DNA of 50,262 bases. Source: Spirochaetales bacterium (GTDB lineage Bacteria > Spirochaetota > Spirochaetia > Sphaerochaetales > Sphaerochaetaceae). The notes below the pieces were generated by a model. The model saw only the letters and a program-made list of their open reading frames with translations, was not told where the DNA came from and did not search any database. Below are positions 1,664-50,262 of the stretch, in pieces (position 1 is the first letter of the stretch; every line of letters begins with the position of its first letter). The stretch lies in the NCBI GenBank assembly GCA_012523305.1, contig JAAYIV010000021.1, positions 1 to 50,262 on the forward strand, read 5' to 3'. The position numbers and the translations under genes were made by a program.

Positions 1664-2977
1664 ATGGTGAATAAAATTGACAGCAGAATACAGATAGCTG
1701 AAGCGCGTAGAATCCAACGGTTGTTGGCAACCTGTGATCGCGACGAACGGGATGCCATGTTATTGGCCATAGCAAAGCAATTGGAGCATGATGCTCAGTT
1801 ATTGTTCGCAGCGAACCAAATTGATGTGGACGCCGCGACGAGAGACCAATTGCCGATACCTTTGCGCAAGCGCTTGGTGTTCGACTCTCAGAAGTTGGAA
1901 GCTTCTTGCATCCAGATTCGTGAGGTTGCCGTCTTGGATGATCCGTTACGAATCGTAGCTGAGCGTCGCGTTTTGGATGAAGGCCTTTTATTACAACGAA
2001 TAAGCGTGCCCATCGGAGTGATAGGAATGGTGTTCGAATCCCGGCCTGACGCACTTATCCAGATTGTCTGTCTTTGCCTAAAGAGTGGAAACGCCATCGT
2101 ATTGAAGGGGGGAAGGGAAGCCTTGGCCACCAACAGGGCCCTGATAGATTCGATTCGTCGCGCCCTCATGCCATTTGCCGCCGGATCAGGTTGGATCGTG
2201 CACCTCGAGAGCCGCGAGGATGTAAATGCAATGTTAGTTATGGATGATCTAATCGATCTGATGATTCCCCGTGGATCGAACGAATTCGTAAGACACATCA
2301 TGGATTCAACCAGAATACCAGTTCTTGGGCATGCGGACGGACTCTGTGCGATATATGTGGACTCAAAAGTCGACCTTGAAATGGCAGTATCGGTGATAAC
2401 CGATTCAAAGTGCCAATATCCTGCGGTATGCAATGCCGTGGAAACACTTTTGATTCATGAAGATATCGCATCAAGGTTACTACCAGATGTGAAGAAATCG
2501 CTAGACCGATATTCGGTGGTTATCCATGGAGATGAAAAAGTATCCAAGATCATCGGCTGCATAGCGGCTACTTCAAAAGATTGGGATACGGAATACCTGA
2601 ACTATGAAATCGCGATAAAGGTGGTCTCTTCGATAGATGAGGCGATAGACCATATAACAATGCACGGATCCGGCCATACCGATTGCATACTCACAAAAGA
2701 TGAGGCGATGGCCACGCGGTTTCTCACCGCAATCGATTCGGCCGATGTGTTTTGGAATTGTAGTACCCGTTTTTCGGATGGGTACCGCTATGGTCTTGGA
2801 GCCGAGGTTGGCATAAGTACCCAGAAAATTCATGCACGCGGGCCAGTCGGTCTTTCCGGACTTACGACAAGTAAATGGTTGCTTACCGGGCAAGGACATA
2901 TTGTGGCAACATATTCTGGAGAAAATGCCAAACCGTTCATCCATAAAAATGTCCCGGTAAAAGGAATCATGCGATGA
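1664..2977 (+). CDS. proA: Glutamate-5-semialdehyde dehydrogenase (gamma-glutamyl phosphate reductase)
   Basis: Reduces gamma-glutamyl phosphate to glutamate-5-semialdehyde with NADPH, the second step of proline synthesis, in the cytoplasm. The protein is 437 residues, normal for ProA. I chose ATG 1664 because GAGGGG sits 3 bases before it; the in-frame ATG at 1649 has no such site. Visible signatures are PIGVIGMVFESRPDA (about 116-130), the NADP-binding region with LKGGREA (147-153), and the catalytic cysteine Cys256 in YPAVCNAVET. The stop overlaps the proB start (ATGA), so kinase and reductase are translationally coupled, in the order proA-proB. ProC is encoded separately at 8548-9360. Confidence 0.96.
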   Translation: MVNKIDSRIQIAEARRIQRLLATCDRDERDAMLLAIAKQLEHDAQLLFAANQIDVDAATRDQLPIPLRKRLVFDSQKLEASCIQIREVAVLDDPLRIVAERRVLDEGLLLQRISVPIGVIGMVFESRPDALIQIVCLCLKSGNAIVLKGGREALATNRALIDSIRRALMPFAAGSGWIVHLESREDVNAMLVMDDLIDLMIPRGSNEFVRHIMDSTRIPVLGHADGLCAIYVDSKVDLEMAVSVITDSKCQYPAVCNAVETLLIHEDIASRLLPDVKKSLDRYSVVIHGDEKVSKIIGCIAATSKDWDTEYLNYEIAIKVVSSIDEAIDHITMHGSGHTDCILTKDEAMATRFLTAIDSADVFWNCSTRFSDGYRYGLGAEVGISTQKIHARGPVGLSGLTTSKWLLTGQGHIVATYSGENAKPFIHKNVPVKGIMR

Positions 2978-4083
2978 GCCGCGATTTTTCCCACGTAAAG
3001 CGTGTAGTTATAAAAGTCGGTACAAATCTACTCACCAACTCAAAAGGTATCGATACGAACCGGATCGACCAAGTTGTGGACAGTATCGTTGCGTTGCGTG
3101 AGAAGAATTTACAGGTATTGTTGGTCACTTCCGGTGCTATCGGACTCGGTGCCAAGGAACTTGGGCATGCCAATGCGGTAAAACAGATTGCACTGCGTCA
3201 GGCTTGTGCGTCGATAGGACAACCGATTCTCATGTATCATTACCGTTCTGCATTCAAACGCCATAACGTCGTCTGTTCACAAATTTTGTTAACGAGAAGT
3301 GAGATGAATGACCGGCGAACATTTGTCAACCTCAAGAATTCGGTAAGTACGTTGCTTGATCTCGGTGTGGTGCCGATCTTCAATGAAAATGATACGGTAA
3401 GCACCGCAGAGATCGGGACCGCTTTTGGTGATAATGACCGTATGAGTGCTTTGGTCGCCAGCAAGATCGATGCGGAGTTGCTGATAATTCTTACCGATAT
3501 CGAAGGATTATATACCGGAGATCCAAAGAAAGACAAACATGCCACATTGATTTCTGAATTGGACAAACTGGACGATTCGGTAATGGCTTTTGCGGGAAAA
3601 GCCGGCAGTACATTTTCAACCGGAGGGATGAAAACCAAATTACTTGCCGCCAAGATTGCTCGGCAAGGCGGTTGCACTTCGGTGATTGCGAGCGGATTCG
3701 AACCCGATGTCATCATTAGGATACTTGCAGGAGAACCTGTCGGTACCTGCATTCTTCCGGAGAAACGGCTTTCTCAACGGGCTCGTTGGATTTTGAACAG
3801 TACTCCGATGGGAACGATTCGTGTGGATACCGGTGCTGAAAAAGCGTTGCGTTCACATAAAAGCCTGTTGCCTTCGGGTATCATTGCGGTCGAAGGGGCT
3901 TTCAACGCCGGAGATGTGGTGATGATCAATGATTTTGCGAAAGCCGTACCATATTACAATAGCACGCAAATTATCGAGCTTGAAGGATGTCAAAGTAATG
4001 AAATTCCGGTTAGACTGGGAAAAGGGAAAGCAGATGTAATTTTCAGACCGGAGGATATAGTATTTATTGACCATGCAGAATAA
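2974..4083 (+). CDS. proB: Glutamate 5-kinase with PUA domain
   Basis: Phosphorylates L-glutamate to gamma-glutamyl phosphate, the first and normally proline-inhibited step of proline synthesis. At 369 residues it has the full two-domain layout. The amino-acid-kinase domain (about 1-255) starts with VVIKVGTNLL, then SGAIGLGAKELG, NENDTVS and FGDNDRMSALVA. A C-terminal PUA domain (about 275-365) includes GIIAVEGAFNAGDVV. The kinase loop STGGMKTKLLAAKIA is intact. Its start overlaps the proA stop by four bases, and its end overlaps the next gene by about 11 bases. Confidence 0.96.
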   Translation: MSRDFSHVKRVVIKVGTNLLTNSKGIDTNRIDQVVDSIVALREKNLQVLLVTSGAIGLGAKELGHANAVKQIALRQACASIGQPILMYHYRSAFKRHNVVCSQILLTRSEMNDRRTFVNLKNSVSTLLDLGVVPIFNENDTVSTAEIGTAFGDNDRMSALVASKIDAELLIILTDIEGLYTGDPKKDKHATLISELDKLDDSVMAFAGKAGSTFSTGGMKTKLLAAKIARQGGCTSVIASGFEPDVIIRILAGEPVGTCILPEKRLSQRARWILNSTPMGTIRVDTGAEKALRSHKSLLPSGIIAVEGAFNAGDVVMINDFAKAVPYYNSTQIIELEGCQSNEIPVRLGKGKADVIFRPEDIVFIDHAE

Positions 4084-47509: not shown

Positions 47510-48937
47510 ATGAAAGTTTCCATTTTCAATACGATGTCACGGTCAATCGAACAATTTGAACCACTTTCAGCAGATACTGTGAGAATGTATTGTTGTGGGC
47601 CGACAGTCTATAATTTTGCACACATAGGGAATCTGAGGACCTATGTGTTTGAGGATATTTTACGAAAGACATTGGAATATGCCGGATATCGCGTGGAACA
47701 TGTAATGAATGTAACCGATGTCGGACACCTTACCGACGATGCTGACGATGGTATCGATAAAATGGTGAAATCTTCTCAAGAGATGGGCAAGGATGTCTAT
47801 GAGATTGCTAGATTTTATACCGATGCATTTTTTAAGGATATCGATGAATTGAATATAGCCAGGCCTACCGTGACGTGCCATGCAACTGAACATATCGGTG
47901 ATATGATCGAATTGATCAAACGTTTAGAGAAAAACGGGCATACTTATTTTGCCGGAGGTAACGTCTATTTCAGCATCGACACTTTTCCGCAATATGGCAA
48001 TCTGGCAAAGTTGAATCTCGAAGATCTGCGATCGGGTGCTCGCATCAACGTTGATCCGAATAAAAGGAATCCAAAAGATTTCGTGTTGTGGTTTACTAAC
48101 TCGAAATTCGAACGTCAAGCAATGCTTTGGGATTCACCCTGGGGAATCGGATATCCAGGATGGCATATCGAGTGTTCGGCGATGAGCATGAAATATCTCG
48201 GGGAGTCATTTGATATTCATTGTGGGGGAATAGATCACATTCCCGTGCACCATACGAACGAAATCGCTCAAAGCGAGGCCGCGACAGGCAAGCAATGGGT
48301 GAGCTATTGGGTTCACGGAGAATTCTTAATTAACGATACGGGGAAGATGTCAAAATCAAAAGGGAGTTTCCTTACTCTTCAATTATTAAAAGAGAAAGGG
48401 TTTGATCCTGTGGATTACCGCTATTTTTGTTTGGGTGGGCACTATAGGTCTCAGCTACAATTTTCTTGGGATTCGATGCAAAGTGCACGAAATGCTCGAT
48501 TGAACCTTTTTCAACGAATCGTATCGCTTCGAAAAGAAACCAAAGATCAGAATATCAAGAACCTTGGCGCTGCAGAAAAATATGTACAATTATTTGAAAA
48601 CCATATGGCGCAAGATATGAATGCTCCTCGAGCATTGGCTGAATTATGGAGCATGCTGAAAGATCCTGAATTGGCCGCGACCGAGAAACTCGCCGGTGCG
48701 TTGAGGATGGATAGCATACTTTCACTGGGGCTGAAAAATATCTCTATTGATACAGATGAAGATGAGATTCCGCAAGAAATTTTGGATTTGGTAGAAGAAC
48801 GCAGAATCGCAAAAGTTCAGAAGAATTATGCCCGTGCCGACCAGTTGCGTGCTATAGTGGAAAAAGCTGGGTACCAATTGAAAGATACTCCTGAAAATTC
48901 GATTGTGGTGCGAATTTGTAACCAAATGCATAAATGA
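47510..48937 (+). CDS. cysS: Cysteinyl-tRNA synthetase
   Basis: Class I synthetase charging tRNA-Cys. The 475-residue protein has the zinc cysteine Cys29 in YCCGPTVYNFAHIGN, the HIGH-type motif HIGN (38-41), GWHIECSAMSMKYLG and HCGGIDHIPVHHTNEIAQSE for the zinc site. KMSKS is at residues 279-283. The C-terminal DALR-like helical domain ends ARADQLRAIVEKAGYQL. AAGGAG lies 6 bases before the ATG. The sigma-factor gene follows after 12 bases, so stress-sigma expression may ride on the cysS transcript. Confidence 0.97.
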   Translation: MKVSIFNTMSRSIEQFEPLSADTVRMYCCGPTVYNFAHIGNLRTYVFEDILRKTLEYAGYRVEHVMNVTDVGHLTDDADDGIDKMVKSSQEMGKDVYEIARFYTDAFFKDIDELNIARPTVTCHATEHIGDMIELIKRLEKNGHTYFAGGNVYFSIDTFPQYGNLAKLNLEDLRSGARINVDPNKRNPKDFVLWFTNSKFERQAMLWDSPWGIGYPGWHIECSAMSMKYLGESFDIHCGGIDHIPVHHTNEIAQSEAATGKQWVSYWVHGEFLINDTGKMSKSKGSFLTLQLLKEKGFDPVDYRYFCLGGHYRSQLQFSWDSMQSARNARLNLFQRIVSLRKETKDQNIKNLGAAEKYVQLFENHMAQDMNAPRALAELWSMLKDPELAATEKLAGALRMDSILSLGLKNISIDTDEDEIPQEILDLVEERRIAKVQKNYARADQLRAIVEKAGYQLKDTPENSIVVRICNQMHK

Positions 48938-48949
48938 GTTGTTAAGCGT

Positions 48950-49477
48950 ATGGAAATAAACAGCAGCGAAGGCAAGGCGTTCAGGCTTGTGTACGAGCAG
49001 GTCTTCCCCGTGGTGATGAGAGTAGCGTATCACATCACCTATAATATGGACGTCTCCGAAGATATCTGCCAGGAAGCGTTCATACGGTTTTATGAAAAAG
49101 CAATTGTATTTCGTTCGGTTGATGAAGCAAAATATTGGTTGATACGGGTTACTAAAAACATGTCAATCAATATCATCAAACGGAAAGCGAGGGAACAGGC
49201 GACTGTCGAACGATTGAAAAAGATTCCCTCAACAGCTGCCCCCAATGGTGAACAATCATTATTGGGAAATGAAACGAGATTATTGGTACGTGAAGCTGTG
49301 GAGAAGCTTCCTGAGAAACTGAAAGCCGTGCTGGTGTTGAAGGAATATGCCGATTTGAATTATAAGCAGATTGCGCAAATCCTTCGCATTTCCGAAAGTA
49401 ATGTTAAGGTCAGGGTACATCGAGCAAGAAAAATCATGGAATCGATGCTTGACCGGGAGGAGATGCATGTGTCTTGA
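48950..49477 (+). CDS. ECF-like RNA polymerase sigma factor
   Basis: A 175-residue sigma-70-family factor with only regions 2 and 4. Region 2 (about 12-80) has VYEQVFPVVMRVAYHITYNM and DICQEAFIRFYEKA, then YWLIRVTKNMSINIIKRKARE. Region 4 (about 112-165) has AVEKLPEKLKAVLVLKEYAD and the helix-turn-helix YKQIAQILRISESNVKVRVHRAR. It directs polymerase to a small regulon. Its 3' end overlaps the anti-sigma gene by 11 bases, the usual arrangement. The ribosome site before ATG 48950 is weak, so translation may depend on cysS. Confidence 0.9.
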   Translation: MEINSSEGKAFRLVYEQVFPVVMRVAYHITYNMDVSEDICQEAFIRFYEKAIVFRSVDEAKYWLIRVTKNMSINIIKRKAREQATVERLKKIPSTAAPNGEQSLLGNETRLLVREAVEKLPEKLKAVLVLKEYADLNYKQIAQILRISESNVKVRVHRARKIMESMLDREEMHVS

Positions 49478-50090
49478 TGACCAAATACTTAACACCTATC
49501 TTGACGGTGAATTAGCTGAACCATGGAATACTCAGGTTATTGAACATTTGCGCTATTGTGTCGCATGCAGTGCAAGACTTGACCAGCTGAAGGAACTACA
49601 CCAGAGGCTATCACAAGTTAAACTCACTGACGATGAAATCACGCCTCATCGTGAAAAAGTGCTTAAATTCATAGAAAATAATCACATTAACAAAAGACGA
49701 GCGTTTAAATTCATGAATCGCAGCTTTCGTGTGACTGTTCCGATGGCGATGGCGAGTGCGGCTGCATTTGTAGTCATCCTTACTGTAGCTCTATTAGTGG
49801 GAAATCAGGCTATCGAACAACCTGGTGAGATTATCCCACAAGTTTCCGTTCCAGCGACTGGTTCGGTGATACAGGTTCGAGCTACTGAAAATCTTTCAGC
49901 CAGTCAATTACTCGAGAATTTCACTTTGGAAGAAATCTTGCAATACCTAAATTCGAAAGGGTATGAAGTCGAAGTGAAAATGAAGGGCATACAACCGCTG
50001 ACCCATGGGGATATCGACAGTCAAGTTCCACCCGCAACAGATCCGCAAAAAAGTGATGATAGTGAAGTTGATACAGTAGTATCTGAATAA
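49467..50090 (+). CDS. Anti-sigma factor with zinc-finger (zf-HC2) and one membrane helix
   Basis: A 207-residue partner of the upstream sigma factor. ATG 49467 is chosen for the GGAGGAG just upstream. The N-terminal zinc-binding anti-sigma domain has YLDGELAEPWNTQVIEHLRYC with His27, Cys31 and Cys34 (HxxxCxxC). A linker leads to one transmembrane helix (about 90-112, PMAMASAAAFVVILTVALLV). The C-terminal 95 residues lie outside the membrane and are acidic (TDPQKSDDSEVDTVVSE); they hold a small predicted alpha-beta segment (LLENFTLEEILQYLNSKGYE). The signal that releases the sigma factor is unknown. Confidence 0.85.
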   Translation: MCLDDQILNTYLDGELAEPWNTQVIEHLRYCVACSARLDQLKELHQRLSQVKLTDDEITPHREKVLKFIENNHINKRRAFKFMNRSFRVTVPMAMASAAAFVVILTVALLVGNQAIEQPGEIIPQVSVPATGSVIQVRATENLSASQLLENFTLEEILQYLNSKGYEVEVKMKGIQPLTHGDIDSQVPPATDPQKSDDSEVDTVVSE

Positions 50091-50112
50091 AACTACTTTG
50101 CTCGTATGTAGG

Positions 50113-50139
50113 AATGGGATTTTCATAATCCCATTTTTT
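50113..50139 (+). terminator. Rho-independent terminator of the cysS-sigma-anti-sigma operon
   Basis: Perfect 9-base-pair stem AATGGGATT (50113-50121) / AATCCCATT (50127-50135), loop TTCAT, running into TTTT and A. It also forms the probable insertion target of the intron that follows at once. Confidence 0.88.
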
Positions 50140-50140
50140 A

Positions 50141-50262
50141 GTATGACGGGCATGTCATCATTCTTGGGTGAAATTCCCAAGGGGCGTAGTTGCCGACGAA
50201 CCCGATAGCGACTTGCAAGTCTCACACCGCGAGGTGTGGGAGGGAAGAAGCAATAGCGAAAT
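50141..50262 (+). mobile_element. Group II intron, 5' end (class C-like), continues past window
   Basis: The sequence starting GTATGACGGGCATGTCAT right after the terminator matches the layout of domain I of bacterial group II introns. It has a GTATG boundary (consensus GUGYG) and a stem ATGAC/GTCAT around GGGC. A GGGTGAAATTCCC hairpin has the 6-base stem CTTGGG/CCCAAG at 50163-50181. GACTT/AAGTC (50210-50221) follows, then a CACACC/GGTGTG hairpin capped by a GCGA tetraloop (50223-50238) and the GGAAGAAGC segment. From memory, the order resembles the Oceanobacillus iheyensis intron, but no alignment was run. Insertion directly after a terminator hairpin is the known habit of class C introns. 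The reverse transcriptase/maturase gene should lie in later domains, outside the window. Confidence 0.82.

Follow-up and report, generated by a model that had tools for sequence, protein, structure and literature searches.

Locus and genomic context

The stretch analysed here (the window) is the entire contig C49, 50,262 bases long, from a draft genome (G000) of 2.56 Mb in 187 contigs. The features that matter lie at its right-hand end:

47510..48937, forward strand: upstream context, an ORF of 475 aa that we take, from sequence knowledge, to be cysS (cysteinyl-tRNA synthetase)
48950..49477, forward strand: gene for an ECF-type sigma-70 factor (Pfam Sigma70_r2 and Sigma70_r4_2; NCBIfam sigma70-ECF above cut-off)
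49467..50090, forward strand: gene for a probable anti-sigma factor of 207 aa, the last of the operon (NCBIfam 'antisigma'; adjoins the sigma gene)
50110..50139, forward strand: intrinsic terminator, the 5' exon and insertion target of the intron (sequence, fold and site statistics)
50141..50262, forward strand: 5' end of the outer class C intron, its first 122 nt, in domain I and cut by the contig end (homology)

The 'antisigma' match of the 207-aa protein is weak (E 4.8e-5, under the cut-off). By sequence inspection, the terminator has a perfect 9-bp stem formed by AATGGGATT (50113-50121) and AATCCCATT (50127-50135) around the loop TTCAT (50122-50126), and the stem extends to 12 bp if two G-U pairs and one A-U pair are counted. 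A T-tract (50134-50139) and A50140 follow, and the intron starts with GTATG at 50141. Within the stub we found the GGGTGAAATTCCC hairpin (50166-50178), a GCGA-capped stem (CACACC-GCGA-GGTGTG, 50223-50238) and GGAAGAAGC (50243-50251). An earlier note on this DNA had described a perfect 9-bp hairpin with a T-tract ending at 50139, the GTATG boundary and these three domain I features, and all of them are present. The 158-nt stretch at this end folds at -58.9 kcal/mol (z = -5.7 versus shuffles).

At gathering scores, Rfam returned no match over the 50,262-base contig, and when the settings were relaxed, the short stub matched a group II model at best with E = 0.54 (D1D4-4), because the stub stops inside domain I. 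Longer copies of the same intron match RF02001 at 60 to 114 bits. On the window alone, the refuting condition set in the earlier note would thus leave the question undecided. The reverse transcriptase (RT) and domain V that were to be sought near the stub are absent from C49 because the contig stops there; both were found in homologues and domain V also on the other flank of the insertion, and these decide the matter. Judged by homology, the stub is the start of a class C (IIC) group II intron.

The other flank was located by synteny. In at least 14 relatives, valS lies directly 3' of the sigma/anti-sigma operon. In G000, contig C138 opens with a 127-nt intron 3' end (nt 1-127, locus L058) that has a domain V at 62.3 bits, and valS comes next as its first gene. 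C49 and C138 are not physically joined and contig C32 shares this 3' end, so it is synteny with valS that singles out C138; on this basis, C138 nt 1-127 is the 3' end of the same insertion as the C49 stub. The intron would thus separate the anti-sigma terminator from the valS promoter. A comparison with intron-free relatives, as the earlier note had advised, revealed empty sites consisting of the terminator, a promoter-like sequence (TTGTAA-17-TAGTAT, clearest in G001, which is of the same genus) and valS, without an intron. The suggestion that the insertion could alter termination found no support, as upstream the hairpin and its six Ts are untouched, and so is the conserved promoter-like sequence of valS downstream. 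With both the sigma operon and valS unbroken, there is no ground to expect changed termination.

The lengths of the two contig ends match: 122 intron nt plus TTTTA make 127 on C49, and C138 contributes 127. All six domain V matches in G000 also sit near contig ends. Together, these lengths and positions suggest that the assembly broke at multi-copy introns. A further multi-copy group II intron at which the assembly broke is seen on C165 (1-127) and C4 (18992-19118), with identical intron 3' ends (domain V at 37.7 bits, ending CCTACCCGGATT) that precede different sequences. A second class-C-like 5' end, GTGCGCTCGG, lies behind a GGACCCCGGACGGGGTCC terminator on C14 (L064, 7890-8256); this intron is an internally deleted copy, whose domain I is shortened and whose RT frame starts at about residue 73. 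A search of G000 for an RT of either type belonging to the C49/C138 copy found none; the RT fragments on C14 and C52 were rejected, as neither carries the 5' end of the stub.

Relatives and insertion sites of the outer intron

Searched with the stub by blastn, a plasmid collection yielded matches on two Bacillota plasmids that cover at least 80% of the query: Tetragenococcus muriaticus pHDC-Tm (76% identity) and Streptococcus agalactiae pGB2002 (71%). A group II RT is present at both loci, annotated as ltrA in pGB2002 and as an unannotated 402-aa ORF in pHDC-Tm; both have Rfam D1-D4 matches and pGB2002 also has a domain V match. The same intron 5' end was found at 94 to 97% identity in G001, G035, G493 and G498, all of its own family, with shorter or more diverged copies in other relatives. 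The records with a near-identical 5' end are metagenome genomes of Sphaerochaetaceae / Spirochaetales. Since the host genes of the intron-bearing relatives are about 69 to 71% identical to those of C49, compared with 94 to 97% for the intron, the outer intron has probably spread horizontally.

The intact homologue in the closed genome G493 is 96% identical to the stub. Its RT matches the GsI-IIC RT at 366 bits, the group II RT 7uim at 340 and LtrA at 134. A domain search of this protein gave RVT_1 and GIIM only, with no match to an endonuclease domain. The same RT (L172, P0001) has GTPQEGP where GTPQGGP is conserved and a short N-terminus relative to G035:C183; given these two features, the protein may function poorly and depend on other class C RTs in G493. 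In G498 (L173, C16 2123-5569), the RT gene of an outer-family copy is split at GTPQ/GG by a 3.45-kb element that has inverted ends and three tyrosine-recombinase-like ORFs in a row, resembling a RIT (recombinase in trio) element.

To describe the insertion sites, we assembled 24 of them from the outer intron family and its plasmid relatives. A strong hairpin with a T-tract ends at the intron in 21 of the 24, compared with 1.4% of 5000 random positions, and the 45 nt preceding the intron at the 24 sites have a mean fold energy of -19.1 kcal/mol versus -7.7 kcal/mol in controls. The sequences upstream are mutually unrelated (mean identity 31%). With homologues that carry an RT and a domain V, a GsI-IIC-like RT, this site preference and the valS flank, the central proposal of the earlier note, a class C intron at the sigma-operon terminator, is supported.

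A composite 3' end and its nested counterparts

The 127-nt end on C138 is composite. Nucleotides 16-91 match the 3' ends of RmInt1-like introns in G041 and G036, and nt 90-126 are 100% identical to the 3' ends of the class C family in G001 and G035, with which its domain VI (TGAGAGGTTGGGACC..CTACTCGATT) agrees fully. The RmInt1-like part stops exactly at a splice point, CTCGAC/TGAGAGG (the slash marks the junction). The outer domain V is not visible on C138 and is seen in homologues. This composite 3' end occurs twice in G000, 100% identical, at C138 1-127 and C32 27857-27980. Two identical composite ends suggest that G000 has gained extra copies of the nested element or of its inner part; the composite could move as a unit, or the inner intron could have homed twice.

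The intact copy in G493 explains this structure, with a second intron following the outer domain V. Its outer intron (nt 1-1753) comprises D1-D4, the RT and a domain V (GAACCGCC...GGTGGTG). Exactly after this domain V, an inner intron (nt 1754-3576) starts with GTGTG, has a D1D4-2 match, its own RT of 424 aa and a domain V at 64.4 bits, and ends with CTACTCGAC. The outer domain VI (TGAGAGG...CTACTCGATT) then resumes. On plasmid EAL2_808p of Peptoclostridium acidaminophilum, an element of the same nested layout follows a terminator; it has two RT genes and shares with G493 the junctions GTACGGTGGTG/GTGTG...ACTCGAC/TGAGAGG. Removal of the inner intron from either copy restores GGTGGTGTGAGAGG, the same as in uninterrupted copies. 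These two are the only fully sequenced nested copies that we found. The junctions are identical in three genomes, in G000 for the 3' junction only. A piece on G462:C16 has the same 3' junction but is truncated on its 5' side up to the inner domain V region; we counted it as supporting only.

The inner RTs of G493 and Peptoclostridium are 63% identical, and their next relatives include copies in Sinorhizobium meliloti GR4 (56% identical). S. meliloti is the host of RmInt1, which suggests a link between the inner RT and that intron. Among 393 Spirochaetota genomes, the junction pattern was found only in the two copies of G000 itself (C138 and C32), and the 3' junction pattern had no match in viral contigs. 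Nine viral-contig matches to CGTACGGTGGTGGTGTG were discarded as unrelated; they are apparently coding sequence with no intron behind. The introns of G041 and G036 were also considered as the same inner element and proved to be related introns at other sites. Related introns were observed within the RT genes of other group II introns, in several copies in G041 (L123-L129) and on plasmids of Priestia (L214) and Megaera (L215), where split RT ORFs adjoin the introns.

Interpretation and alternatives

Overall, the element at C49/C138 is most likely a twintron. We consider it highly probable that a class C intron lies behind the sigma/anti-sigma terminator with an RmInt1-like intron between its domains V and VI, for a total of about 3.6 kb. 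Since the interior is unassembled in G000, we infer the inner intron of this copy from its 3' 89 nt. With 127 nt of the 3' side assembled and the outer domain V out of sight on C138, the same end could also belong to a plain class C intron on C49, the composite on C138 being a recombinant in which an RmInt1-like domain V replaced the original one. Many outer-family copies in relatives do lack an inner intron. However, the outer domain V is intact upstream of the inner intron in G493 and on the Peptoclostridium plasmid, with the same junction, and the inner 3' end on C138 stops at the exact splice point, which leaves this explanation a small chance.

It is very improbable that the 122 nt are a dead, truncated 5' remnant next to an accidental contig break. 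Short pieces of the intron do exist in G003, G006, G008, G027 and G032:C121, but the match here reaches the last base of C49, the stub and the shared TTTTA add up to the length of the C138 end, as expected for an assembly-graph break at a repeat, and the domain V matches of G000 cluster near contig ends, with a 3' end on the partner flank. To another structured RNA behind the terminator, such as a riboswitch or an sRNA leader, we give practically no credence. The FMN riboswitch and pemK RNA came up in Rfam with weak matches at chance level, far under gathering scores, whereas the stub is a dispersed repeat behind unrelated terminators that aligns to RT-carrying group II introns; homologues with RT and domain V refute this idea.

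Taking the twintron as the preferred reading, the class C intron would insert by hairpin recognition behind the Rho-independent terminator, leaving the terminator and the valS promoter intact. The inner intron would then locate the 3' strand of the outer domain V through EBS1-IBS1 pairing (CRCCAC with GTGGTG) and reverse-splice into the domain V/VI junction. Candidate EBS1 sequences occur at aligned positions 222/223 of the inner introns, CGCCAC in G493 and CACCAC in Peptoclostridium; both pair with GTGGTG, since pairing is preserved despite the G/A difference. No part of group II introns is more conserved than domain V, and the target of the inner intron is therefore present in many class C introns. 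A search of the plasmid collection recovered the outer domain V sequence at >90% identity from 165 records. With the outer domains V and VI 1.8 kb apart, ordered splicing is expected: the inner intron would splice first and bring the two domains together again, after which the outer intron could splice and move to other terminators, using an RT of its own or one supplied in trans. Ordered splicing has been shown for the Trichodesmium twintron (PMC4649490). A broader proposal is that an RmInt1-like lineage has become a specialised hyperparasite of class C introns. It would recognise, through base pairing, the 3' strand of domain V, which no part of the class C ribozyme exceeds in conservation, and could therefore invade diverged class C introns across phyla (Spirochaetota, Bacillota); the outer ribozyme would then work only after the invader has spliced out. 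We see the chances for and against this proposal as evenly balanced.

Recurrent insertion between domains V and VI of a class C ribozyme, if real, would mean that a retroelement exploits the conserved catalytic core of a second one as a target both safe and widespread. The G493 and Peptoclostridium copies offer small intact natural constructs for studying ordered splicing and the mobility of composites as units. The case also illustrates how draft assemblies conceal nested elements, with six out of six domain V matches near contig ends.

Comparison with known systems

Class C introns habitually insert behind terminators (PMC4424553; PMC8919778), a targeting for which Robart et al. (2007) is the work cited in the review PMC4424553. 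Insertion at a terminator by such an intron is therefore already known, and the stub alone is ordinary. The outer intron resembles the class C introns B.h.I1, O.i.I1 and GsI-IIC in the type of its 5' end and in the D1D4-3 RNA family, and shares with GsI-IIC and its class C kin an En-less RT and insertion directly behind a hairpin and T-tract. Unlike these three, the C49 copy most likely has another intron between its domains V and VI. The introns of pGB2002 and pHDC-Tm are, like the outer intron, adjacent to a terminator, equipped with an RT and terminated by CTACTCGATT; they differ from the C49/C138 element in having no inner intron and in their hosts.

In the openly accessible literature that we searched, we found no account of group II introns that home to the boundary between domains V and VI of class C introns. 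The inner element resembles RmInt1 of Sinorhizobium meliloti (class D / IIB3) in its En-less RT of about 420 aa. RmInt1 targets an insertion sequence, whereas the inner element targets a class C domain V. The psbF twintron of the Euglena chloroplast, the first described in Euglena, reportedly has its internal intron in domain V, and in this location in or at the outer domain V it is like the C49/C138 element. Euglena chloroplast twintrons are organellar and degenerate and have no class C partner, unlike the element described here.

Bacterial twintrons are known but rare. In T. elongatus, TeI3 is nested in TeI4 between two ATGs of the outer ORF (PMC2882425), in Trichodesmium the inner intron lies in domain I (PMC4649490), and nested introns of archaeal Methanosarcina are cited in the latter paper as having inner sites in related ORFs. 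Like the C49/C138 element, these are group II introns within group II introns, often at a recurrent site. Their inner introns lie elsewhere in the host intron, whereas the site used here is the boundary between domains V and VI of a class C ribozyme.
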